A DNA stretch of 21,282 nt from a virus: the IMG/VR virus record IMGVR_UViG_3300025828_000237, positions 1-21,282 of that record, one strand, 5' to 3'. The notes beneath the pieces are model-generated. The model saw only the letters and a program-made list of their open reading frames with translations. It did not search any database and was not told the origin of the DNA. The position numbers and the translations under genes were made by a program. Shown here in pieces: positions 3,069-19,646 of this stretch (position 1 is the first letter of the stretch; each line of letters begins with the position of its first letter).

Positions 3069-4717
3069 CCTTCATCCTCGATATCAAATTCGTCTACGTC
3101 CTCTACTTCGCTCAAACGACCAGTGTCGGGATCGTAGTAAAGGTTACAAGCTTTGCCTGTATCACCAGTATGTCTTGACTTAAGGACACGAAGGACTGTA
3201 GTATTTGCCAACCTAGCATCATCCGCTTGCTGGTTACGTTCAAGGGCGATAACCGTATCACTCAACTGTGCAATACTTTGAGAGCCCCTCAGATGAGAGA
3301 GACTAACCTCAATACCTTGTTCATGTCCTTTGTCATTACTGGTTCTACGAAGGTGACTGACGAGCACCATGCCACAGCCTGTTTCTTCAACAAGGCTACG
3401 GAGACGCAGCATGATGTCGTCAATCGTTCGACGCTCGTCACCCTCAGTATGAGCAGCGACTAGCATATGCAGGTGATCTACTACAACCCACTGACAGTCA
3501 CAGCCAATGATAAGGTAACGAAGCTTAGCGAAGATGTCATCTATATCTTGGATGCCCAGATGAGCATGAACAAATAACCTATCCGCATTAGGGCCTTCAA
3601 AGAGTTTAGTGTAGTGCTCATGTATTTTAGCCTCGGGATATGCTTGTCTTACTTTGTCCCTAAAGAGCTGGGATTCGGCTTCGATAGATACAATACCCAT
3701 CACAGTCCGTTTGCAATCTTCTTCTAGGGCCATGACTCCTACCTTTTCATCGGTAGTAGTAAGCAGCCAGTGCTCAAGCTCACGAGTAACAGAAGACTTA
3801 CCTAAGCCAGTACCACCAGTTAAGGTGATCAGTTCTTTCTTACGCAGTCCATCCAACTTGTGATTGAGCCCATCCCAAGGATAAGGGATACTCTCTACAC
3901 TTTCTTCGGTGAAGAACTTCTCTTTGAAGTTAGTGACATTAACAATCCCTGAGGGAGTGTATGTCTCTGCGTTCCAAAAACACTGGACAAAACGCTGTGA
4001 TTCATTCCTGATCAGCATATCGTTGGCGTCTTTGAAACCTTCGGGGAGTTTCATTACTTTACATTTCCCCGGCTTCAGTAGCTTTGCAACTTTCCGAGCA
4101 GCTTCCTGTCCCGGCTTATCCATATCGAAGCAAAGTATTACGTTGTCAAACGATTCAAGGTACTCAATGTCTCGTTTGAAATCTCGAGGGGCACCCGATG
4201 CTCCGTTCTTAAGGGAGATACAGGGCCATCTATTACCTGTCATTTGGTGAGCAGCCATAGCATCAAGCTCACCCTCACAAACAGTCAAGTATTTACCGCC
4301 AGCCTTAAAGGCTTGGCAACCGAACATATGAGCTTCACCAGCAGCACCACTAAATGTGAAACTTTTGTTCTGAGTATAACGAATCTTCCTTGCTACCTCT
4401 GTATTAAAGTCAGCGAAGTAAGGATAGATATGTTGAATGATCCCATTAGAACCCTCAATGACTCTAACACCGTAGGTCTTACAGGTTTCTTCAGAGATCT
4501 TACGATCAGGGATATCTTTAAATTCACCCTGATCAGAGAATTGAATTACTGTTTCTTGTTTTTCTTCCAAGCTATCAACGTCCCCGTAGTTCTTAAAGTA
4601 TTTAGAGCATGTGAAGCAGTAGGCAGAACCATCTGCATTGATGCCAGTGTTATCAGAACCCTGCCCACAAGGACAGGGCTGATGTACTTTAACAAAGCCG
4701 TCTTTATTAATTGACAT
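3053..4717 (-). CDS. T7 gp4-like primase-helicase
   Basis: This bifunctional replisome protein is 554 aa, close to the 566 of T7 gp4. An N-terminal zinc motif has CPC (residues 15 and 17) and CFTC (34 and 37). The TOPRIM primase core follows, with VCEGELDA near 146-153 and CFDMDKPG near 196-203. The RecA-like helicase domain has Walker A GGTGLGKSS (about 301-309), Walker B WVVVDHLHML (about 410-419), and VLVSHLRR. The C-terminus is acidic, like the T7 gp4 tail that contacts polymerase. I chose ATG 4717 (MSINKDGFVKVHQPC) because it puts the zinc motif at the distance seen in T7 gp4; an in-frame ATG at 4747 would add ten residues. No strong Shine-Dalgarno is seen, so coupling to the overlapping upstream gene is likely. 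Confidence 0.95.
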   Translation of the reverse strand: MSINKDGFVKVHQPCPCGQGSDNTGINADGSAYCFTCSKYFKNYGDVDSLEEKQETVIQFSDQGEFKDIPDRKISEETCKTYGVRVIEGSNGIIQHIYPYFADFNTEVARKIRYTQNKSFTFSGAAGEAHMFGCQAFKAGGKYLTVCEGELDAMAAHQMTGNRWPCISLKNGASGAPRDFKRDIEYLESFDNVILCFDMDKPGQEAARKVAKLLKPGKCKVMKLPEGFKDANDMLIRNESQRFVQCFWNAETYTPSGIVNVTNFKEKFFTEESVESIPYPWDGLNHKLDGLRKKELITLTGGTGLGKSSVTRELEHWLLTTTDEKVGVMALEEDCKRTVMGIVSIEAESQLFRDKVRQAYPEAKIHEHYTKLFEGPNADRLFVHAHLGIQDIDDIFAKLRYLIIGCDCQWVVVDHLHMLVAAHTEGDERRTIDDIMLRLRSLVEETGCGMVLVSHLRRTSNDKGHEQGIEVSLSHLRGSQSIAQLSDTVIALERNQQADDARLANTTVLRVLKSRHTGDTGKACNLYYDPDTGRLSEVEDVDEFDIEDEGWQLK

Positions 4718-9158: not shown

Positions 9159-9772
9159 AGTCTTGCCTCCAGAAGTTCTCGGTAATAGTTAAATTCATTA
9201 TCTAATTCAGGTTCTCCATTGTCTGTTACTTTACCAACAGCCCTACAGTTAGGGCCAATCAAAAGGAACTGATCATCTTCGTCTGCTGCAAAGATAGTAA
9301 ACTCCCTACAGAATGCTTGAGAAGGGAGATGATCAACAGAATCAAGACGCTCCAAGCACTCAGAGAAACTAGGATATGTCCCATTCATCATGTCATTAAA
9401 GTTGGACATGCCATCAATGGATTCCATAAGATGGTCTACCTTCTGACGACTAATAGTAATCATACCGTGATCCCAAAAGCACCGGATCATTTGGAGATTA
9501 CTATTAGATAGTCCCTGCTTATAGAAGCGGCTACCTTTCCTTACAACATATGTAGGGATCTCAAAGCCATTCATGAAGCCTAGTCTTGGAGGGCTTGAAT
9601 CCAGCTCATCAAAATTAAAGGTTCCTCGACGTTGGCTGTGCATAAATTTACCTGATACCACATTAGACTCTGTGATTTCAGAGATAAGAAAGGGCCTGCC
9701 GTTCCTACTTACAAATGTACCTGAGTATCGAGAGTTCTTATCTCGATTGTTCATGTGACTAAAGTGAGGCAT
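9155..9772 (-). CDS. Unknown protein lodged between two amidoligase genes (205 aa)
   Basis: The ORF begins MPHFSHMNNRDKNSRYSG. I set the start at ATG 9772, with GGAG 6 nt upstream; the longer frame would begin with TTG. The fold looks mixed alpha/beta with an acidic C-terminal half. No catalytic motif is recognisable. It overlaps its neighbours on both sides (14 and 4 nt) inside the ligase cluster, so it is likely an obligate part of the pathway, perhaps a carrier or substrate, but that is inference. Confidence 0.65.
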   Translation of the reverse strand: MPHFSHMNNRDKNSRYSGTFVSRNGRPFLISEITESNVVSGKFMHSQRRGTFNFDELDSSPPRLGFMNGFEIPTYVVRKGSRFYKQGLSNSNLQMIRCFWDHGMITISRQKVDHLMESIDGMSNFNDMMNGTYPSFSECLERLDSVDHLPSQAFCREFTIFAADEDDQFLLIGPNCRAVGKVTDNGEPELDNEFNYYRELLEARL

Positions 9773-10607
9773 AGTGTACTCCAACTCTTGTATACCATTT
9801 TTGATCCCTTATAATTTCCTGTGCACCACTTCTATTAGCCCTATTAATAACTGTTGCTATATAAGGGTCGTCTCTCAATCCATATTCTCGGTTCTGAAAG
9901 TTTTCTATAACTCTCTGAGTATTCTCAAATACCCAACGCATATAACGCTCATCTTTCAACCAAAAATTAGAGAGCACTCGATACTCCAAGCCATAAGGCT
10001 TAGGTCTAAAGGAACCAGCCTGACCATAAAGAGTTCGGCGCTTTTTACCTGAGGCTTGGGGCTCTACAAGAATTGAAGGGAGACCTAAAGCAATGTCAAG
10101 CTCTTTAGTAATTGCTCGACACTCAGCGAAGTGAAGGGGGTCGAAAGGTTCAACATAATCTTTCTCTGGACGCCAGCCAATATGAATATGACCTGAAGCA
10201 CAACGGAAATTAAGATCCTCCGGTTCGTCTGGAGTCTTTTCTTCCCCTGTATAAGCACAGTAATCAGGATCACAACCTAGTTCTTTAGCTTCTGGAGGTT
10301 GCGTTTCCAAATAAGCCTTACTAAAATGTGTTACAATTCTAGGGCTGATATGAAACTCAGAGGGTACTAGTTTACGCAGCTCCTCTTGAACCTTGTTAAT
10401 ATTAAATACAAATTCATCCGAGTTCTTAGCTGGATTGATATTAAATTCAAGAGCCATACCGTCTACTTGAACAGCACCACAATCTACATTGAATGGTTCT
10501 GCTTTAGTACCCGGAATAACTCCATGAGCTGAGACTGCTTTAAACCTAGGCGATGGGCCATTAGTCATAAACAGTTCAGGGTCTGCACCAATAGTAATAT
10601 TTTTCAT
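9759..10607 (-). CDS. Phage COOH-NH2 ligase (type 2 amidoligase)
   Basis: This 282-aa protein has the pattern of the phage COOH.NH2 ligase family, distinct from the amidoligase two genes away. It contains GADPELFM (7-14), VDGMALEFNI (48-57), SGHIHIGW (138-145) and YGLEYRVLSNFW (205-216). These supply the Glu, His and Arg positions of the glutamine-synthetase fold that activate a carboxylate with ATP and couple it to an amine. ATG 10607 overlaps the amidotransferase stop (ATGA). Two different amidoligases in one operon suggest two successive couplings, or two different substrates. Confidence 0.85.
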   Translation of the reverse strand: MKNITIGADPELFMTNGPSPRFKAVSAHGVIPGTKAEPFNVDCGAVQVDGMALEFNINPAKNSDEFVFNINKVQEELRKLVPSEFHISPRIVTHFSKAYLETQPPEAKELGCDPDYCAYTGEEKTPDEPEDLNFRCASGHIHIGWRPEKDYVEPFDPLHFAECRAITKELDIALGLPSILVEPQASGKKRRTLYGQAGSFRPKPYGLEYRVLSNFWLKDERYMRWVFENTQRVIENFQNREYGLRDDPYIATVINRANRSGAQEIIRDQKWYTRVGVHYASL

Positions 10608-11914
10608 GCTCCACCTTGATAGCTTTTAATTTCACACTCATCACTACAAACAAAACTTGTAGCATCCATCCAGATTATATCTTTTGCTTGATCCTCTTTG
10701 GGGATCTGGTTGCATACAAAGCATCCAGAAGTAACCATCTCCCTCCATTCATCAGCCGGGATAAGCATACTCCCATAAGGGATAAGCTGTGAATTATTTT
10801 GAAGGAGAGGAAGTTGCTTTTTTTCTTGAGGGATCTCAGAATCTTTCACACTATACGGGGTAACAACCAGCGTAGCCTTTCGATCAGCCGCTATACTATT
10901 AGTCCAATCAAGATATTGAACCCGACCTGTAAAGTAAAGATCATTAGCAATACCTGCTACCAACTTAGGAACTACTTCTTTATCACATTGAACATGAGCC
11001 CTGCAAGAGATACGAACAGGAACAGGAGGATTAGTACCAATAGCATGGCCCGTAAATGTATCACCGACTCGGCCAGTTACTTTAAAGTAACAAGAATCTC
11101 CCGGCCCGAAGCCCTGATACTTACGACCACTACGATATTGGTTCCCGTTAGATCCATGGTATCCCCCACTGTTGTAGGTAGTAGTCTTCGGTTTCGGTGC
11201 TACATAGGGGCTCAACTTTTTTACTTTAGCCTTATCAATCTTCTCATTAATCTTACTAGGAATAGTAAACTTATAAAGATGATGAGGCTTGACAGAATTA
11301 AACTTATTCTTGTGAACCTTCATATCAGCACGGCTCAGTGCAAGATTAAGAATCTGCCATTCAGATGACCAATAGAGCTGCTTAAAGTCATCACTATAAG
11401 CATAGTAAAGAGGACGCTCATCGTTACGAATAAAGTTCAAGGTCTCATCACTGGCATCCCACCACACTAAAGCAGCAGCACCATGAAGACGATTACTATA
11501 TACTTCCTCGATACCATGAAGGGCCATGTTATAAATAAGAGCCTCACTATCTACATCAAAGTGAGAACCCTCATCAAGAAGTGATACACCCCTTAGCGTC
11601 CCGTTATGAACAGCAGTGATACTCTCATACTGAAAAGGATGAGCGTTCTCATCACTGACATGACCTTTAGTGGCTGCTCGATTATGCCCAATCAAAACCT
11701 TGTGACTGTCCTTAAGAATCTTATCAAATCTACGGGTCGCCATGAATTCATAAGCAGGCAGTGCCTTCTTATACCATGAGGTTTTGTTCTGCTTGTTAAC
11801 AGATATAATACCTGTTGAGTCCTCGCCCCTTAGCACATCAAAGAACAATAGACTCTTAAATACTTTCTCGTGTTTTACTGAGATATCCCCAGCAACACCT
11901 ACAATCCCACACAT
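10604..11914 (-). CDS. Class II glutamine amidotransferase (Ntn hydrolase) with extended C-terminus
   Basis: The protein starts MCGIVGVAGD, so removing Met exposes Cys2, the nucleophile of class II amidotransferases that hydrolyse glutamine to release ammonia. Supporting motifs are RGEDSTG (29-35), LIGHNRAATKG (74-84), HPF (92-94) and HNGTLRG (103-109). The amidotransferase domain ends near residue 210. The remaining ~220 residues have no synthetase domain I recognise. They include a Gly/Tyr-rich linker (GGYHGSNGNQYRSGRK) and a C-terminal CFVC ... CSDEC zinc-like site. This is not asparagine synthetase or GlmS. Ammonia could feed an amidation step by the neighbouring ligases. SD AAGGAG precedes the ATG. 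Confidence 0.85.
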   Translation of the reverse strand: MCGIVGVAGDISVKHEKVFKSLLFFDVLRGEDSTGIISVNKQNKTSWYKKALPAYEFMATRRFDKILKDSHKVLIGHNRAATKGHVSDENAHPFQYESITAVHNGTLRGVSLLDEGSHFDVDSEALIYNMALHGIEEVYSNRLHGAAALVWWDASDETLNFIRNDERPLYYAYSDDFKQLYWSSEWQILNLALSRADMKVHKNKFNSVKPHHLYKFTIPSKINEKIDKAKVKKLSPYVAPKPKTTTYNSGGYHGSNGNQYRSGRKYQGFGPGDSCYFKVTGRVGDTFTGHAIGTNPPVPVRISCRAHVQCDKEVVPKLVAGIANDLYFTGRVQYLDWTNSIAADRKATLVVTPYSVKDSEIPQEKKQLPLLQNNSQLIPYGSMLIPADEWREMVTSGCFVCNQIPKEDQAKDIIWMDATSFVCSDECEIKSYQGGA

Positions 11915-11923
11915 ATAAACTCC

Positions 11924-12751
11924 TTACTTGTAAGTCTCGTGCATCAGTTTAAACATCTCATCCCTATGATCGGGAGCATATTTAAGCTGACGCCCTAAAT
12001 AACTATAACCTATAAGCTCACCGCGAGGGCTGGCCCCTATTCCCTTAATAAACTTAGCAATCTTAGTACCCCCTGATCCATCAAAAGCAGCGTGAACCCC
12101 TTGTTTATTGCGCTCATTAAAGGATGAAGTAGCAAACTTAGGATCAAACCCATGCTCAATAAAGCTCTTAATCTTTGCAGGGCTAGCGTCACAAGTAAAT
12201 ACATCATGATCTCCATAAGCCTTCATAGGACAATGAGACTTCTTGAGGTATTGCATTACTTGAAGGGCTACAATAGGATGGAGTCCCTCATTACGAGCCC
12301 TAATGTATGTCTCTAAGGCATAAGGGCCCTCCCAAGGCTGACGAGATACGATTAGTGCCATGATAGCATAGTTACCGGGGGCATCAGGATCAACAATAAT
12401 GTATTCATCTTCTGGATCATACTCTTTTAGCATGACCTCGCTAAAGAACGGCATCACCTCAGCATAATACTGCTGAAGATCGTCCTCATTAACCTTATAT
12501 TTTTGTCGTGCTTGTATCTTAATAGGAGCTACGACAGCAAAATAATTATCGGGATCAGGGTAAGCTGCTGCTGGCCCATGACAGCTAGCTTTCTGAATTA
12601 TATTATATACTGTCGTACTACCATAATTGTCACGAAACTTATCCCGCGCTCTATTAACCTTGACATGCCAAGCATTAGCTTGATGGACATCCACATTATC
12701 AATCATAAGATCAATAGCTTTATCAATTAACTTTTGGTCAGCCTCGTTCAT
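11924..12751 (-). CDS. Unknown amidoligase-operon protein (275 aa)
   Basis: Start ATG 12751 (MNEADQKLIDKA) is supported by AGGAG 6 nt upstream and a 14-nt overlap with the cyclotransferase gene; the longer frame to 12847 lies inside that gene. The N-terminal half is helical and acidic. Cysteines and histidines are scattered (SCHGP, SHCPMKAYGDHD, FTCDAS) and a Gly-rich FDGSGGTKIAKF lies near the C-terminus. No family is recognised. It sits between the gamma-glutamylcyclotransferase-like and amidotransferase genes, so it probably works in the same pathway. Confidence 0.7.
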   Translation of the reverse strand: MNEADQKLIDKAIDLMIDNVDVHQANAWHVKVNRARDKFRDNYGSTTVYNIIQKASCHGPAAAYPDPDNYFAVVAPIKIQARQKYKVNEDDLQQYYAEVMPFFSEVMLKEYDPEDEYIIVDPDAPGNYAIMALIVSRQPWEGPYALETYIRARNEGLHPIVALQVMQYLKKSHCPMKAYGDHDVFTCDASPAKIKSFIEHGFDPKFATSSFNERNKQGVHAAFDGSGGTKIAKFIKGIGASPRGELIGYSYLGRQLKYAPDHRDEMFKLMHETYK

Positions 12752-13094
12752 GCCAATCTCCTGAAGTAATCTGAGGGCCATCTCCGCTATCAAGAAAGTA
12801 AACCCAGCAATCACCATGACCTTGAATAGATACAAGGCGACGTTCATAAAATCTAGGATGTCCCTCGATGGAATCTAAGAGTCTTAGAGTTCCGGCGTCA
12901 ATGTCGTCATAGACTTCACAAACAACTTGGTTCTCAACAGGTTCATCCACTTCCTTAATGAAAGGGAAGGCACCATAATCAAAGAGGGCGATGTTACTAG
13001 GCAGCCTTGCCATGCCCTTAAAGGTTGCAGAGCTAAGGGCACCAGCCCTAGAATCTCGTTGCCTAAGTGTTCCATATACTGCTACTTGTGTCAT
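12738..13094 (-). CDS. Gamma-glutamylcyclotransferase-like (GGCT/AIG2 family) protein
   Basis: This 118-aa protein has the family signature VYGTLR (6-11), which forms the substrate-binding loop, and LLDSIEGHPRFYERR, which carries the catalytic Glu (E77). Length and order match stand-alone GGCT-like enzymes, which cyclise or cleave gamma-glutamyl-amines and release 5-oxoproline. In this operon it could trim or reverse gamma-glutamyl amide bonds made by the ligases, or recycle a gamma-glutamyl intermediate. Translation is probably coupled: ATG 13094 overlaps the preceding stop (ATGA), with GGAG just upstream. Confidence 0.85.
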   Translation of the reverse strand: MTQVAVYGTLRQRDSRAGALSSATFKGMARLPSNIALFDYGAFPFIKEVDEPVENQVVCEVYDDIDAGTLRLLDSIEGHPRFYERRLVSIQGHGDCWVYFLDSGDGPQITSGDWHERG

Positions 13095-13288
13095 ACTCCA
13101 ACGCTCCGTTTAAGATTAAATGTTTCCTGAGACTCAAGCCGCATCTTATTTCTTGCTAACCTTGAGCCCAGCCCATCACACAAAGACATAAGCGCATCCT
13201 TTTCAGGCCCTTCAGAGATTTGTAGGATTTGACCTCGGATAAGCTGAGTATGTCTTAGTGCTTTAGAGATATTGTGGTAGTCGTTCAT
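13091..13288 (-). CDS. Small helical protein (65 aa)
   Basis: The start at 13288 (MNDYHNISKALRHTQ) is fixed by a near-ideal AAGGAGG 6 nt upstream; the longer frame to 13429 runs antisense into the HNH gene and is not supported. The sequence is helical and basic toward its end. It follows the HNH insertion and overlaps the cyclotransferase gene by 4 nt. No function assigned. Confidence 0.6.
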   Translation of the reverse strand: MNDYHNISKALRHTQLIRGQILQISEGPEKDALMSLCDGLGSRLARNKMRLESQETFNLKRSVGV

Positions 13289-13296
13289 GTTCCTCC

Positions 13297-13326
13297 TTGA
13301 CAAAAAACAAATTTTCAATGTATAAT
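13297..13326 (+). promoter_or_regulatory. Consensus sigma70 promoter for the HNH gene
   Basis: TTGACA (13297-13302), an 18-bp spacer, then TATAAT (13321-13326), a full match to both consensus boxes. Only 7 nt separate the -10 box from the HNH ATG, so the message would start at or within a base or two of the ATG (leaderless). It is one of only two plus-strand promoters in the window, each with the same geometry. Confidence 0.8.
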
Positions 13327-13335
13327 AGTATACAT
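13318..13335. promoter_or_regulatory. Inverted repeat over the -10 box and start codon (possible operator)
   Basis: ATGTATA-ATAG-TATACAT is a perfect 7-4-7 dyad that covers the -10 box, the transcription start region and the first bases of the HNH start codon. A protein bound here would block RNA polymerase directly. No bound regulator is known; the HNH protein itself, with its N-terminal Cys-rich motif, is one candidate. Confidence 0.4.
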
Positions 13336-13816
13336 GGATACTAAAAATTGTAATTCTTGCCGACAGCAAAAACCACTCGATGAGTTCTATACTGGACGGG
13401 CTCAATGTAAATCTTGTGTAGTCACTCAAGTAACAACCAGACAGAAAAATAACCCTCAGTATTTAAAATACCAAGCCCAGTATAGAGAAAAAAATAAAGA
13501 CCGAATGAAAGCTGCTCATAAAAAATATGTTGAGAAGAATCGAGGTCTTATTAATTTCCTTAACAGCCGTCGTAAAAAACGTATTAAAGAACGTACTCCT
13601 AGTTGGCTTTCCTCATCAGATATAGCACAAATTAAAGAAATATATAATCAAGCGGCTGAACTATCACAACAAACTGATAAACTTTATCATGTTGATCATA
13701 TAATCCCATTAAAAGGTGAGCTTGTTAGCGGTCTACATGTACCGTCTAATTTACAAATATTAGAAGCCTCTGAAAATATCCGTAAATCTAATCAACTAAA
13801 ATCGCACGATCTGTAA
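13334..13816 (+). CDS. HNH endonuclease, free-standing, likely mobile
   Basis: This 160-aa protein has an N-terminal C-x2-C ... C-x2-C zinc motif (Cys 6, 9, 25, 28). A Lys/Arg-rich helical linker follows, then a C-terminal HNH core: YHVDHIIPL (118-126), GLHVPSNLQ (133-141, N139) and SENIRKSN (N148). This matches phage HNH nucleases that nick or cut DNA. It lies on the strand opposite to the operon around it, is clearly more AT-rich, has its own consensus promoter, and its 3' end overlaps the ATP-grasp gene tail by 29 nt. No Shine-Dalgarno precedes the ATG. These features fit a homing-type intruder. Confidence 0.9.
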   Translation: MDTKNCNSCRQQKPLDEFYTGRAQCKSCVVTQVTTRQKNNPQYLKYQAQYREKNKDRMKAAHKKYVEKNRGLINFLNSRRKKRIKERTPSWLSSSDIAQIKEIYNQAAELSQQTDKLYHVDHIIPLKGELVSGLHVPSNLQILEASENIRKSNQLKSHDL

Positions 13817-14642
13817 TACATTCGTGAATAAATTTACGATACCCTCCCCTACGTTCAATGACAGGAATCCTATCTAAAGGCTTGTCGTCAACCCAATCAA
13901 GCCACTTAACCATACAATCTTGACGATAGTCTTGTGGCAAAGCGGGGCTAGTGTTGGCCTCTAAGACATAAGGATTACCAGCAGCATCTTGAATAACATC
14001 AATAGCTGCAAAGTCTAAAGAGGTCTTAAGAAAAGCCTCACGAGCATAACGAACAGCCTTAAGGGGCCAGTTATCCCAACTGACATTCTCAAAGCGACCA
14101 CCAGCACTAACATTCCAGATAAGGGATTCGATATCCTCAACAAACTTTTCGGCAACACAAAGAATACGACCCTGAGCCACAAAGACTCTGAATTCTCGAG
14201 TCTTAGGGATATACTGAGAGATATAATACCTGTTATGGCTTTGAGCCCTTATAGCCCTTATAGCCCTCGTCAGTTGCTCATAATCTTCGGCATAATAAAA
14301 ATTAGAACCAGCTTCATGGTTAGCCGGACGAACAACATAAGGGTAAAGGTTAGCTTCGTGAGCTGTGCCACGGTTCCAAAAGGTAGGAGGGCAAAGATTG
14401 TCCTCATTAATTAATACTCTGAATTTACTCTTATCAGAGGCATCAATAATACTTTCAGCTTTATTAATTACAGGGACTCCAAAAGGATTCTGAGAGGTTG
14501 TACAGCCCCACCTAAAAACCTTAGAGATATTACGGGGCTTACGTTTATCATTACGCCAAGCCACAATGTTCTCTGACTTCTCAGCTAAAGTATTTACTGT
14601 GGCTCTGGCATAACCTTTACGACGTAGAAGTGCTATTGTCAT
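13788..14642 (-). CDS. ATP-grasp ligase
   Basis: This 284-aa protein has the C-terminal ATP-grasp signature FAAIDVIQDAAGNPYVLEANTSPAL, with the Asp, Glu and Asn that bind Mg-ATP. A basic central strand (YPYVVRPANHEAGSNFYYAE) fits the nucleotide-binding domain, and REFRVFVAQGRIL fits the family's phosphate-contacting strand. ATP-grasp enzymes activate a carboxylate as acyl phosphate and join it to an amine or thiol, as in RimK and other peptide ligases. The start is set at ATG 14642 because GGAG is 7 nt upstream. It is the first gene of the amide-bond operon, just after a terminator, and is cut off from the rest by the HNH gene. Confidence 0.85.
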   Translation of the reverse strand: MTIALLRRKGYARATVNTLAEKSENIVAWRNDKRKPRNISKVFRWGCTTSQNPFGVPVINKAESIIDASDKSKFRVLINEDNLCPPTFWNRGTAHEANLYPYVVRPANHEAGSNFYYAEDYEQLTRAIRAIRAQSHNRYYISQYIPKTREFRVFVAQGRILCVAEKFVEDIESLIWNVSAGGRFENVSWDNWPLKAVRYAREAFLKTSLDFAAIDVIQDAAGNPYVLEANTSPALPQDYRQDCMVKWLDWVDDKPLDRIPVIERRGGYRKFIHECITDRAILVD

Positions 14643-14655
14643 AAATTTACTCCAT

Positions 14656-14698
14656 AAAAAAACCCCCAAGCCCCGAATCACTAGGGGGCAAGGGGGTT
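14656..14698 (-). terminator. Intrinsic terminator before the ATP-grasp operon
   Basis: On the minus strand AACCCCC-TT-GCCCC pairs with GGGGC-TT-GGGGGTT around a 10-nt loop, and seven Ts follow. The hairpin ends only 13 nt before the ATP-grasp start codon, so it closes the transcript of the 157-aa gene upstream. The amidoligase operon would then need read-through, antitermination or a weak promoter of its own. A small hairpin (GCATC-TAGC-GATGC) precedes it. Confidence 0.85.
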
Positions 14699-16702: not shown

Positions 16703-16768
16703 CGTTTAGGCTTTAAAGAGCCTACTTGCCTTTAAGCAGGCTCTCAAAAGCCCCTAAAGGGGCTAGAG
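16703..16768 (-). repeat. Cluster of short hairpins in an intergenic gap
   Basis: The 75-bp gap between two small genes holds four nested or adjacent perfect hairpins. They are AGGCT/AGCCT, GAGCCT/AGGCTC, AGCCCC-TTTA-GGGGCT followed by TTTT, and TAAGCC/GGCTTA, the last overlapping the upstream gene's end. The AGCCCC hairpin plus TTTT could act as a weak intrinsic terminator on the minus strand. The architecture matches the dense hairpins to the right (17.4-19.5 kb). Confidence 0.55.
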
Positions 16769-17005
16769 CTAAGCCCTAAAAGGCTTAGGATGCTCCAAGA
16801 CTTCAGAGTGCTGATCTAAATCAGCAACGGTGTTCTCATAAGTCTCTGAATCCGTTAAGAGCACATAGGATTCGTAGAATCTGGCAACAATAAAACTTCT
16901 ACCATTATACTTGACCTTAGTGCCAGTTTTGAGCCCCTCTAAAGGGGCTCTAGTACCAACTGGGTACAGTTTAGCTTGAAGATTGATTTCGCTCTTAAGA
17001 GCCAT
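16769..17005 (-). CDS. Hypothetical small protein (78 aa)
   Basis: The start at ATG 17005 (MALKSEINLQAKLYPVGTR) has AAGGAG 8 nt upstream and overlaps the stop of the 26-aa ORF as TAATG. The beta-rich middle (LKTGTKVKYNGRSFIVARFY) suggests an SH3-like barrel, but this is not certain. It contains the internal hairpin AGCCCC-TCTAAA-GGGGCT. No family assigned. Confidence 0.65.
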   Translation of the reverse strand: MALKSEINLQAKLYPVGTRAPLEGLKTGTKVKYNGRSFIVARFYESYVLLTDSETYENTVADLDQHSEVLEHPKPFRA

Positions 17006-17085
17006 TATAATTCTCCTTCGATGTAAAGGATAAAGATGAGTATTAAAATACTCGCAACCAATGCTGTAAAGCCCCAAGGTATCAT
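17005..17085 (-). CDS. Probable membrane micropeptide (26 aa)
   Basis: This 26-codon ORF starts MIPWGFTALVAS and continues with ILILIFILYI before a short polar end (EGEL). The hydrophobic run of about 19 residues is enough for one membrane pass. Its ATG directly abuts the stop of the upstream 74-aa gene and its TAA overlaps the next ATG (TAATG), so it is a tightly packed, translationally coupled operon member. AAGGGGG lies 5 nt upstream. The family is unknown. Confidence 0.6.
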   Translation of the reverse strand: MIPWGFTALVASILILIFILYIEGEL

Positions 17086-17310
17086 TTAAACCCCCTTAGC
17101 GGCTTTATTCGCCATCTGACGCTTTATATACCTAAGCTGATCTGCTACCTCAGCAGTAACATTAAAGCCCTTGACTGTTACTAAGTAACATTCAGGGTTT
17201 TGCATCATCAACTTAGCATAAAGCTCAGTCCGTGAATCCGTACTAAAGTAGTAAAGATTCTCTGGAGCCCCTTCGGGGCTTTCGTTAAATGTCATTACTT
17301 CGTAAGACAT
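17086..17310 (-). CDS. Hypothetical small protein (74 aa)
   Basis: The ORF begins MSYEVMTFNESPEGAPENLY and ends with a basic helix (LRYIKRQMANKAAKGV). AAGGAG lies 6 nt upstream. Palindromes GTTACTAAGTAAC and GAGCCCCTTCGGGGCTTTC fall inside its codons. No motif recognised. Confidence 0.65.
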   Translation of the reverse strand: MSYEVMTFNESPEGAPENLYYFSTDSRTELYAKLMMQNPECYLVTVKGFNVTAEVADQLRYIKRQMANKAAKGV

Positions 17311-17320
17311 AATGGTCTCC

Positions 17321-17446
17321 TTAGCCCCTTAGGGGCTGTTGGTTAAGCTCAGACTGGCAGTCTAAGCAGATTACAGTTTTAACAGTGTGGGGAGTCTCCT
17401 TAGACTCTTTAACTGTCGTAAAGCATCGTTCACAAACTTCGGTCAT
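17321..17446 (-). CDS. Zinc-ribbon micropeptide (41 aa)
   Basis: A 41-codon ORF begins MTEVCERCFTTVKESKETPH and contains a second ICLDCQ, giving C-x2-C (5 and 8) and C-x2-C (27 and 30), a compact zinc ribbon. GGAGG lies 7 nt upstream of ATG 17446. Its last codons and stop form the palindrome AGCCCCTAAGGGGCT, just before the next gene's Shine-Dalgarno. Such phage zinc peptides can bind host RNA polymerase or nucleases, but no target is evident. Confidence 0.6.
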   Translation of the reverse strand: MTEVCERCFTTVKESKETPHTVKTVICLDCQSELNQQPLRG

Positions 17447-17464
17447 CGCCGTTCCTCCGGTTGG

Positions 17465-17508
17465 GGCTTATCAAAGCTAGCTAGATTACTATCTAGCTTT
17501 GATAAGCC
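17465..17508. repeat. 16-bp perfect inverted repeat, 12-nt loop
   Basis: GGCTTATCAAAGCTAG and its exact complement flank 12 nt. It is the longest perfect hairpin arm in the window and sits in the gap between the 60-aa gene and the zinc micropeptide. No T-run follows on either strand, so it is not a standard terminator. It could be an RNase III-type processing site, a stabilising structure or an operator. Confidence 0.7.
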
Positions 17509-17541
17509 CTTTAGAACCCCTAAGGGCTCCAAGGGCTGCTT

Positions 17542-17724
17542 TCAATCCCTAAAGGGATCAGTGAACTCACCATCTTCGTCGATAAAGCAATCTTCCTCGG
17601 CAGGATCGAAGATCTCCACTAAACCCCAAAAGGATTCAGCATGTTCACTATCGAGTTTTCTATAAAACTCGCCTTCAAACTTAAAGCTATTCCCTTCGGG
17701 AATTGAATCGAATCGGTAATACAT
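17542..17724 (-). CDS. Hypothetical acidic small protein (60 aa)
   Basis: The ORF begins MYYRFDSIPEGNSFKFEGEF and is strongly acidic in its second half (DPAEEDCFIDEDGEFTDPFRD). AAGGAG lies 7 nt upstream. High acidity and small size recall DNA-mimic or inhibitor proteins of phages, but this is only a composition-based idea. Its stop lies in the palindrome TCCCTAAAGGGA. Confidence 0.6.
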   Translation of the reverse strand: MYYRFDSIPEGNSFKFEGEFYRKLDSEHAESFWGLVEIFDPAEEDCFIDEDGEFTDPFRD

Positions 17725-17734
17725 AAATGGCTCC

Positions 17735-17968
17735 TTAGAGTTCGTAGGTCGTTTCTAAATGGACATGACCCTCTGGGTCAATGACATAAACCGATAAGAT
17801 CTCAGTGCCTCTCGGCAACATAGCATCTTCAGCGGATTCATACCACTGAACATGAATGTTCATGCCAACCCTCTTAATGTTAGTAACTTCAGGGTGAGAC
17901 CCTGAACACTTAAGAGATTCAGGGTTAAACAAATCATCCATAACCTCTTTAACATGACGGTAAATCAT
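17735..17968 (-). CDS. Hypothetical small protein (77 aa)
   Basis: The ORF begins MIYRHVKEVMDDLFNPESLK, with a beta-rich C-terminal half (GTEILSVYVIDPEGHVHLET). AAGGAGG lies 5 nt upstream, itself preceded by the palindrome GGGCCCTTTAGGGCCC. No motif recognised. Confidence 0.65.
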   Translation of the reverse strand: MIYRHVKEVMDDLFNPESLKCSGSHPEVTNIKRVGMNIHVQWYESAEDAMLPRGTEILSVYVIDPEGHVHLETTYEL

Positions 17969-17985
17969 AAATCCTCCTTAGGGCC

Positions 17986-18174
17986 CTAAAGGGCCCCCTC
18001 ATCAAGCTTGTGAACTACTTTAGTAGTAATGTCATCACCGTTGCCATCAAAGATGGCGAAGTCATGACCCCTAAGTTCTAAACTAAGAACTTTATCCAAC
18101 ATCGGATACCAACCTTCTACGAAGGTCTCCGTTTCAGTCCCTAAGGGACTACAGCTAAGTACTTCGTACTTCAT
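17986..18174 (-). CDS. Hypothetical small protein (62 aa)
   Basis: The ORF begins MKYEVLSCSPLGTETETFVE. Several perfect hairpins fall in its codons: AAGTAC-TTC-GTACTT (18157-18171), AGTCCCTAAGGGACT (18136-18150) and ACCTTC-TAC-GAAGGT (18111-18125). The ribosome site AAAGGAG lies in one arm of another hairpin. The family is unknown. Confidence 0.65.
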   Translation of the reverse strand: MKYEVLSCSPLGTETETFVEGWYPMLDKVLSLELRGHDFAIFDGNGDDITTKVVHKLDEGAL

Positions 18175-18179
18175 AACTA

Positions 18180-18194
18180 AACTCCTTTGGAGTT
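18180..18194 (-). promoter_or_regulatory. Hairpin sequestering the ribosome site of the 62-aa gene
   Basis: On the minus strand AACTCC-AAA-GGAGTT is a perfect stem-loop whose 3' arm is the Shine-Dalgarno, 7 nt from the ATG. The mRNA would have to open this stem before initiation. The 123-aa gene just upstream has the same arrangement (ATTTTCC-AAA-GGAAAAT, 18606-18622). Confidence 0.55.
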
Positions 18195-18226
18195 GGTGAA
18201 AGGGGCTCTAAAGAGCCCCCGAGTGG

Positions 18227-18622
18227 CTGTTACTTCGTAACAGTGACTTTGGTTGCAGCGTCAAGACTGTAAGTCTTGCCATTGGCTGACTCGTAAACGG
18301 CTTTGCCGTTCTTGAAAGCCTTCAGGACGTTAAGTCTTTTAGACTTACCGATACGGAACTTCGTTCCGATGTGGCAATCCAGAAGCTCAACCCCTTTAGG
18401 GTTGATGTTGACCTTTCGATCAACCTTCGGTTGAACCGAAGCCCCTTCGGGGCTTTCAGAGCCCTTAAGGGCTGCAACCAGCAAATCTTCAGGGCTCTTA
18501 GGAGCCCTGCGGTCAATCTCAAGCTCTACAAGCTTGAGGACTTGGTTGAACTCAGCTTCGCTGAGGGACTTGAGAACTGCTACAAAAGCTTCGCTTTTCA
18601 TAATGATTTTCCTTTGGAAAAT
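18227..18622. repeat. Array of distinct perfect mini-hairpins through a coding gene
   Basis: Fourteen perfect inverted repeats lie end to end, with centres mostly 20-35 nt apart. Each has arms of 6-8 bp or is a continuous palindrome, and the loop is 3-5 nt when present. Examples: CTGTTAC-TTC-GTAACAG (18227), CAAGACT-GTA-AGTCTTG (18262), AACGGC-TTT-GCCGTT (18296), CGGAAC-TTC-GTTCCG (18354), TCAACC-TTC-GGTTGA (18420), AGCCCTTAAGGGCT (18460), CTCAAGCT/AGCTTGAG (18518), CTCAGC-TTC-GCTGAG (18551) and AAAAGC-TTC-GCTTTT (18584). No two have the same arms, so this is repetition of structure, not of sequence. Six of the loops are TTC closed by C-G, which on the minus strand is C-GAA-G. Confidence 0.8.
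18230..18601 (-). CDS. Hypothetical early protein (123 aa) encoded through a hairpin array
   Basis: The ORF begins MKSEAFVAVLKSLSEAEFNQ. The N-terminal ~45 residues are helical; residues 70-123 are basic and beta-like (GTKFRIGKSKRLNVLKAFKN, KTYSLDAATKVTVTK), which would suit nucleic acid binding. It is the first gene of the minus-strand small-gene block, ~70 nt below a promoter repeat (18679-18707). The codons contain thirteen different perfect hairpins, one covering the stop codon and another, just outside, covering the ribosome site. No family recognised. The hairpins fall in different codon phases, so they reflect nucleic-acid structure and not a peptide repeat. Confidence 0.65.
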   Translation of the reverse strand: MKSEAFVAVLKSLSEAEFNQVLKLVELEIDRRAPKSPEDLLVAALKGSESPEGASVQPKVDRKVNINPKGVELLDCHIGTKFRIGKSKRLNVLKAFKNGKAVYESANGKTYSLDAATKVTVTK

Positions 18623-18678
18623 GAGTTTGAAATACCCCTTCGGGGTAACTCAGCGACCCAGTGCCGCCGAGCCATTTC

Positions 18679-18707
18679 AAGCTACGGGGTTTCGAGATTG
18701 GGGTCAA
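18679..18707 (-). promoter_or_regulatory. Phage promoter repeat, copy 4 (before the 123-aa gene)
   Basis: Minus strand: TTGACC (18702-18707), 17 bp, TAGCTT (18679-18684), followed by GAAATGGCTCGGCGG, which matches the downstream flank of copies 1 and 2 (GAAACTGGCTCGGCGG). Upstream is GGGGGC. The shared downstream flank is the best evidence that this is a true family member despite the weaker boxes. Confidence 0.55.
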
Positions 18708-19263
18708 GCCCCCTTCGCGGGAGAGTCTTTCGCATTATGCGCAGGAACTCCGTACGGAAGGGTGGTCTGGTCGGCCTAGTGATTCTTAGGGCCCTTTAGG
18801 GCCCTTTTGAGCCCCTTTAGGGGCTCTTTAGGGCTCTTTAGAGCCCTTAGTTAGCTCTGAAAGAGCTAGGGGGATGATTGAGGTTTAAGCTCTATAGAGC
18901 TTAGGGAGGCTTTAAAGCCCTAAAGGGCTTCAATGAAGCTCTACGAGCTTTAGGGGCTTTTTAAAGCTCATAGAGCTTTAGAGAGCTTGGGAGTCTTTAG
19001 AGGCTTTTAAGCCTCTAGGTGGTTGATTTCCTTGTGAGATCTGTAAAGATCTCAGGGGTCTTAGGGGCTAATCTTAGCCCCTAAGCGTCTCTGGAGTGAC
19101 CGTCAAGAGCCCCTTAGGGCTCTTCAGGGCTCTTTCAAGCCCTTCAGGGCTTGGGAGATCTCCGTAGGAGATAAGGCTGGAGTCTGATCTTTAAGCCCCT
19201 TAGGGGCTTAGGGGGTCGGGGCAGGCTGCCATGGGGGGTCACTCCTTTAATATACTCCTGCTT

Positions 19264-19292
19264 ACGATGGATAAAGGAGTTGAGGGTGTCAA
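19264..19292 (-). promoter_or_regulatory. Possible phage promoter, CATnnT type
   Basis: Minus strand: TTGACA (19287-19292), 17 bp, CATCGT (19264-19269). The -35 and spacing match the promoter repeats and the -10 has the same CAT..T form, but the flanks are not conserved. It would produce a leader of more than 600 nt to the first gene, passing through the palindrome-rich stretch. Confidence 0.4.
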
Positions 19293-19353
19293 GTGGCGGC
19301 TTAGAAGCCCTAAGAGCCTCTAAGCATCCCTAAGAGCTTTAAAGACCCCCAAT

Positions 19354-19386
19354 AAAAAACCCCCTAGCCCTAACAGGACTAGGAGG
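19354..19386 (-). terminator. Intrinsic terminator in the palindrome-rich stretch
   Basis: Minus strand: CCTCCTAG pairs with CTAGGGGG, extended inward by TCCT/AGGG with a GTT loop, and six Ts follow directly. It is about 165 nt downstream of the consensus minus-strand promoter at 19559-19587 and would stop most transcripts from it. Confidence 0.75.
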
Positions 19387-19552
19387 TCTTATGAGATCTT
19401 AGGGCCCCTTAGGGCTCTAAGGGGTGCTATAGCACCCTTTATACATCTTAGGGAATACTTTAATAATTTATTATGTTACCCCTTTAGAGCCCTAAGGGCC
19501 CTTTAGAGCCCTAAGATCTAGGGTAACCCTAATTCACCCCCGAGGCTCGTTA
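19354..19552 (-). ncRNA. Possible phage small RNA (~200 nt)
   Basis: A consensus sigma70 promoter (19559-19587) and an intrinsic terminator (19354-19386) bracket about 200 nt with no ORF longer than nine codons. The interval holds several strong palindromes (GGGTGCTATAGCACCC; repeated AGAGCCCTAAGG units). It could be a stand-alone structured RNA, or the attenuated leader of the whole minus-strand early transcript. No known RNA family is recognised. Confidence 0.45.
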
Positions 19553-19558
19553 CTCGCC

Positions 19559-19587
19559 ATTATACAGGTAGATTAAAGATCTGTCAA
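19559..19587 (-). promoter_or_regulatory. Consensus sigma70 promoter, leftward
   Basis: Minus strand: TTGACA (19582-19587), 17 bp, TATAAT (19559-19564), full consensus with optimal spacing. It is the outermost minus-strand promoter and is back to back with the rightward promoter at 19618-19646. This divergent pair marks the switch between the leftward small-gene/replication arm and the rightward packaging arm. Confidence 0.85.
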
Positions 19588-19617: not shown

Positions 19618-19646
19618 TTGACAAGTGGCGGCTCAAGGGCTATAAT
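19618..19646 (+). promoter_or_regulatory. Consensus sigma70 promoter, rightward (terminase operon)
   Basis: TTGACA (19618-19623), 17 bp, TATAAT (19641-19646), full consensus. The first ATG is 7 nt after the -10 box, the same distance as in the HNH promoter, so the message would be leaderless or nearly so. The sequence TATAATAG after the spacer is identical in both. Confidence 0.85.

Follow-up and report, generated by a model that had tools for sequence, protein, structure and literature searches.

The window analysed here is a whole 21,282-nucleotide stretch of viral DNA (IMG/VR record IMGVR_UViG_3300025828_000237), which its proteins identify as a fragment of an HMO-2011-type podovirus. Three encoded proteins place it there: its TerL shares 75% identity with those of Pelagibacter phages HTVC103P and HTVC115P and 59% with that of HMO-2011, its primase/helicase is 44% identical to the HTVC103P counterpart, and its DNA polymerase matches the group at the level of PHROG families only. 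HMO-2011-type phages rank among the dominant marine phage groups, and a partial DnaJ domain inside their DNA polymerase has been reported (PMC9038755). The window also encodes a phage-borne sulfotransferase family protein and a cassette whose gene content suggests peptide or wall modification (Table 1).

Table 1. Features of the window, with positions and strand.
Feature	Position	Strand
Sulfotransferase family protein	225-836	
Cassette, suggested peptide or wall modification	9759-14681	
Cassette: COOH-NH2 ligase-type amidoligase	9759-10607	
Cassette: class-II glutamine amidotransferase	10604-11914	
Cassette: gamma-glutamyl cyclotransferase	12738-13094	
Cassette: R2K ATP-grasp	13788-14681	
Whole mini-hairpin array, coding and noncoding, denser toward the early promoter	16749-19210	.
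Further small early ORFs, hairpin density declining (17986-18174, 17735-17968, 17542-17724, 17086-17310, 16769-17077)	16769-18174	-
Opening gene of the leftward early unit (123-aa ORF), with 11 perfect non-overlapping mini-hairpins	18230-18601	-
Hairpin covering the ribosome-binding site of this ORF, ATTTTCC-AAA-GGAAAAT in mRNA sense	18606-18622	-
Untranslated leader (predicted), about 950 nt, leftward promoter to first ORF; hairpins up to 19210	18602-19558	-
Longest perfect stem of the array, 12 bp with a 2-nt loop	19060-19085	.
Conserved core: GGGGCAGGCTGCCAT, G/C tract, AT-rich ATATACT	19218-19256	.
Leftward sigma-70-type promoter, 12/12 consensus, 17-nt spacer	19559-19587	-
Rightward sigma-70-type promoter, 12/12 consensus, 17-nt spacer, toward terminase	19618-19646	+

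The leftward and rightward promoters stand back to back, and transcription of the leader is predicted from the leftward promoter alone. In 67 of 76 related loci, both strands upstream of TerL carry promoters matching at least 11 of 12 consensus positions. The core, with the motif GGGCAGG-NN-GCC followed by a G/C tract and an AT-rich end, is matched in 29 of the 76, where it is placed between promoter and array; it is a candidate origin, packaging or regulatory site. A role of its G tract as an R-loop primer was rejected, as G predominates in this tract in some phages and C in others. A terminator scan of the window gave 7 hits against 4.6, no excess worth claiming, and an Rfam search of the window returned chance-level weak matches only, none at the gathering score.

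In order to quantify the hairpins, we called perfect, non-overlapping inverted repeats with arms of at least 6 and loops of at most 5 across the whole window. The preliminary description had listed thirteen such repeats in one 372-bp ORF plus one over its ribosome site. Independent calling over 18227-18622 gives the same tally, as 13 non-overlapping repeats and a fourteenth, AGCCCCTTCGGGGCT (about 18439-18453), that overlaps a neighbour, and the listing bears out that all arms differ from hairpin to hairpin. The density is indeed far beyond that of random coding sequence: synonymous-codon shuffles of the ORF contain 1.33±1.05 repeats (n=2000, maximum 6) against the 11 observed, and other null models give 0.57 (codon permutations), 0.91 (background codon usage) and 0.55 (dinucleotide shuffles). 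The near-regular spacing is likewise upheld, with a standard deviation of centre spacing of 4.8 nt across 18190-18660 compared with 12.7 nt under random placement (0 of 5000). AlphaFold modelling of the ORF product was uninformative (pLDDT 38).

Hairpins are densest in the ORF; the feature as a whole, however, is not the single hairpin-built gene originally described but a 2.5-kb array that opens the early transcription unit. From 16.7 to 18.6 kb there are 37 inverted repeats where 2.8 are expected, and the noncoding 18.6-19.56 kb has 20 (2.3 expected), while 1-15 kb of the window is at background (24 against 20.3) and the late side has none (2.3 expected). Leftward from the early promoter, successive genes contain 11, 5, 3, 3, 2, 4, 3, 1 and 0 repeats. 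Hairpins lie mostly on the early side of the core, with 29 to its left and 3 to its right in the window, and 12 against 2, 17 against 6 and 10 against 0 (early against other side) in the related loci L047, L070 and L098. A gap of about 140 nt within the array (18648-18787) is free of hairpins, and its folding is not above that of shuffles (z -1.0).

The same divergent junction carries arrays in many metagenomic relatives and in the cultured phages HMO-2011 and CRP-1; loci with strong arrays were taken for detailed analysis. Averaged over 81 TerL-related contigs, hairpin density is highest between positions -3500 and -1000 relative to the TerL motif. The HMO-2011 array lies at 53.2-55.2 kb and includes gp74, which has 9 hairpins against 1.2 in codon shuffles; CRP-1 gp01 has 11 against 1.8, and the first early genes of L070 and L064 have 10 against 1.0 and 8 against 1.35, respectively. 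The gp74 and gp01 proteins show weak similarity (26%, E 7e-4). The hairpin-filled genes are oppositely oriented in L064, L100 and L111, and between L064 and L100 hairpin positions turn over while density is maintained. At 8394-8441 of L047 and at equivalent places in L060, L098, L038 and L101, a perfect stem of 17-22 bp is positionally conserved, with wholly different arms.

No comparable array was seen in the examined parts of HTVC103P, HTVC115P, HTVC033P, CRP-738, CRP-3 and CRP-13, or in the first 6 kb of CRP-2. The array is therefore patchy in the group, being present in HMO-2011 and CRP-1 and unseen in seven other cultured relatives. The closest TerL relative, L036, has the same layout without an array, and together with the cultured relatives lacking one it indicates that the array is dispensable in the group. 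The corresponding leader of L036 contains alternating GT/GC-rich repeats (gcgtgtgcgcg) at 3250-3345.

AT-rich phages commonly carry short palindromes as a background rate, and the array might in principle reflect chance, base composition or an assembly artefact. This explanation is exceedingly improbable and is refuted by the excess over shuffles, the excess in the first genes of relatives, the recurrence in independent contigs and the conservation of arms between close pairs (below), and an artefact is further contradicted by the presence of the array in the GenBank genomes of the isolates HMO-2011 and CRP-1.

Hairpin geometry suggests that the hairpins physically form, as 3-nt loops are closed by a 5'-pyrimidine/3'-purine pair in 86 of 90 array hairpins compared with 85 of 191 background repeats. 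Across 11 pooled arrays, spacers of 0-3 nt are depleted (2 against 24) and lengths of 16-19 nt are overrepresented (24 against 13.5). Regular spacing is clear in the ORF of the window, suggestive in L064, L047 and L038, and lacking in some arrays.

In aligned relatives, stems hold their places, and both of their arms are rewritten with pairing kept. We compared six close pairs, counting a site as an arm site if it lies in an arm in either sequence of the pair, which limits ascertainment bias. Symmetrised in this way, divergence is 1.1% in arms (14 of 1282 sites), 3.0% in spacers (90 of 3036; p=1e-4) and 15.4% in loops (27 of 175; p=4e-11); arms thus vary less than spacers, contrary to neutral accumulation only. 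In three pairs, altered array hairpins are mostly still perfect and chance repeats outside are mostly broken, although numbers are small. Comparison of hairpins with outside sequence in the coding pair L064/L138 showed no reduction overall, and per-gene tests were not significant, so that the evidence for arm conservation comes from noncoding arrays. The rewriting of arms with pairing kept and their low divergence relative to spacers support the proposal that the repeated unit is the fold and not the sequence. Rewritten and conserved arms are what a selected structure predicts, whether in RNA or in DNA. The compensatory changes that had been suggested as a check in homologues are found in the arrays of relatives; searches of Pfam, PHROG, IMG/VR and phages for direct homologues of the ORF itself found none.

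Loops, in turn, are often exactly reverse-complemented between perfect arms in close relatives. This was observed in six noncoding hairpins (L047, L076, L118/L132, L038/L128 twice, and L130/L136) and in one coding hairpin (L064/L138), where AAA became TTT and AKH became ALH. The inversions indicate that loop identity is not critical. They are also a known signature of template switching (PMC8604942, PMC8794818), and the array could accordingly be a mutational by-product, in which fold-back template switching near the junction, a possible origin at the core, makes and perfects inverted repeats and leaves a functionless array of self-promoting hairpins. In favour of this, the array is one-sided relative to the core, occupies coding and noncoding DNA in either gene orientation, is patchy among relatives and turns over in position at steady density, and the closing-pair bias would favour fold-back priming as well. 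On the other hand, arms change about one-third as fast as spacers, whereas copy-back homogenisation alone predicts near-neutral arms; the even spacing is unexpected; and an origin near the junction, here a candidate only, is presupposed. We consider this explanation somewhat unlikely. The template-switching footprint proposed in the preliminary description thus accounts for the loop inversions but not for the slowed arms. Since copy-back alone would leave arms near the neutral rate, selection on pairing seems to be needed too, and we infer that pairing is under selection and that hairpins are re-copied by template switching.

The preliminary description had also raised an mRNA scaffold or decoy, for which the strand evidence offers weak hints. 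Array loops are A-rich on the early-mRNA strand. Single mismatches on this strand favour G-U over A-C by 19:5 (p=0.007) to 14:9 (p=0.4) depending on the settings, several thresholds having been tried. This excess is absent from a first, looser count in noncoding arrays (13 A-C, 11 G-U) and from one-sided changes between close relatives. Predicted hairpin stability is equal for the two strands, for RNA and for DNA.

The equal folding of both strands would suit a structure acting at the DNA level, such as the ssDNA structure for replication or packaging proposed in the preliminary description. Hairpins on single-stranded or supercoiled DNA would here take part in opening an origin, in priming or in packaging, or would be recognised by a phage protein. 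A 5'-pyrimidine/3'-purine closing pair is preferred in DNA mini-hairpins with loops of 2-3 nt, the array adjoins the conserved core and the terminase module, and gene orientation is immaterial. However, the sequence-specific hairpins known from origins or packaging sites do not resemble these dozens of varied stems, whose loops are free; the array reaches about 2.5 kb into genes, and it is absent from relatives that likewise must replicate and package their DNA. A DNA-level role is therefore, in our judgement, distinctly unlikely.

Because the array lies downstream of the early promoter and thins away from it, we incline toward RNA, and the hairpins probably act in early RNA. The explanation we favour, with less than even confidence, is that the array fills the early leader and first genes, that its pairing is selected and re-copied by template switching, and, less firmly, that it acts in RNA. 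From a strong host-type promoter, the early transcript would fold into a mini-hairpin about every 34 nt, leaving mostly short single-stranded gaps, while template switching during replication would re-copy arms and flip loops. Such folding could protect the leader and first mRNAs against attack by RNases, the loading of Rho or the formation of R-loops, a predicted role. Against this explanation stand the strand results given above, the non-critical identity of the loops, the many loops of only 2-3 nt, which is short for RNA, the opposite orientation of the hairpin-filled genes in L064, L100 and L111, and the dispensability of the array in the group. In its boldest form, which we regard as rather doubtful, the proposal would be that a double-stranded DNA phage carries a distributed, sequence-free structural code, with a stem about every 34 nt over its early leader and first genes, in which coding sequence is bent to armour early RNA and template switching provides the upkeep. 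As a natural set of many hairpins, the arrays allow template switching, compensatory evolution and folding selection to be measured jointly, protein-coding genes included, and because cultured phages carry them their function is experimentally accessible.

Within the literature library searched, no paper mentions HMO-2011 together with hairpins. In stem and loop size the array resembles the hairpin promoters of the N4 virion RNA polymerase, which have stems of 5-7 bp and 3-nt loops. Those promoters, however, are few and sequence-specific, whereas the phage array comprises dozens of hairpins within transcribed genes, with arms that all differ and no conserved hairpin sequence. Genome-scale ordered RNA structure in RNA viruses spreads folding over coding and noncoding RNA without conserving sequence. 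The phage array shares this distributed, sequence-independent folding, but it is local, belongs to a double-stranded DNA phage rather than an RNA genome, and consists of discrete perfect mini-hairpins. REP/BIME elements and organelle palindromic repeats (PMC3733652; PMC2670323) also form many small hairpins; these copy one or a few sequences, whereas the arms of the phage array differ from hairpin to hairpin and are not copies of one sequence, with noncoding arms of one phage having words in common. Template-switch, or quasi-palindrome, mutation homogenises arms and exactly inverts the spacer at short inverted repeats, coding DNA included (PMC8794818; PMC8604942), and the phage array shows the same arm homogenisation and exact loop inversion. 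The published events are scattered over rRNA and yeast genes, whereas the phage array gathers dozens at one locus, with their stems conserved.
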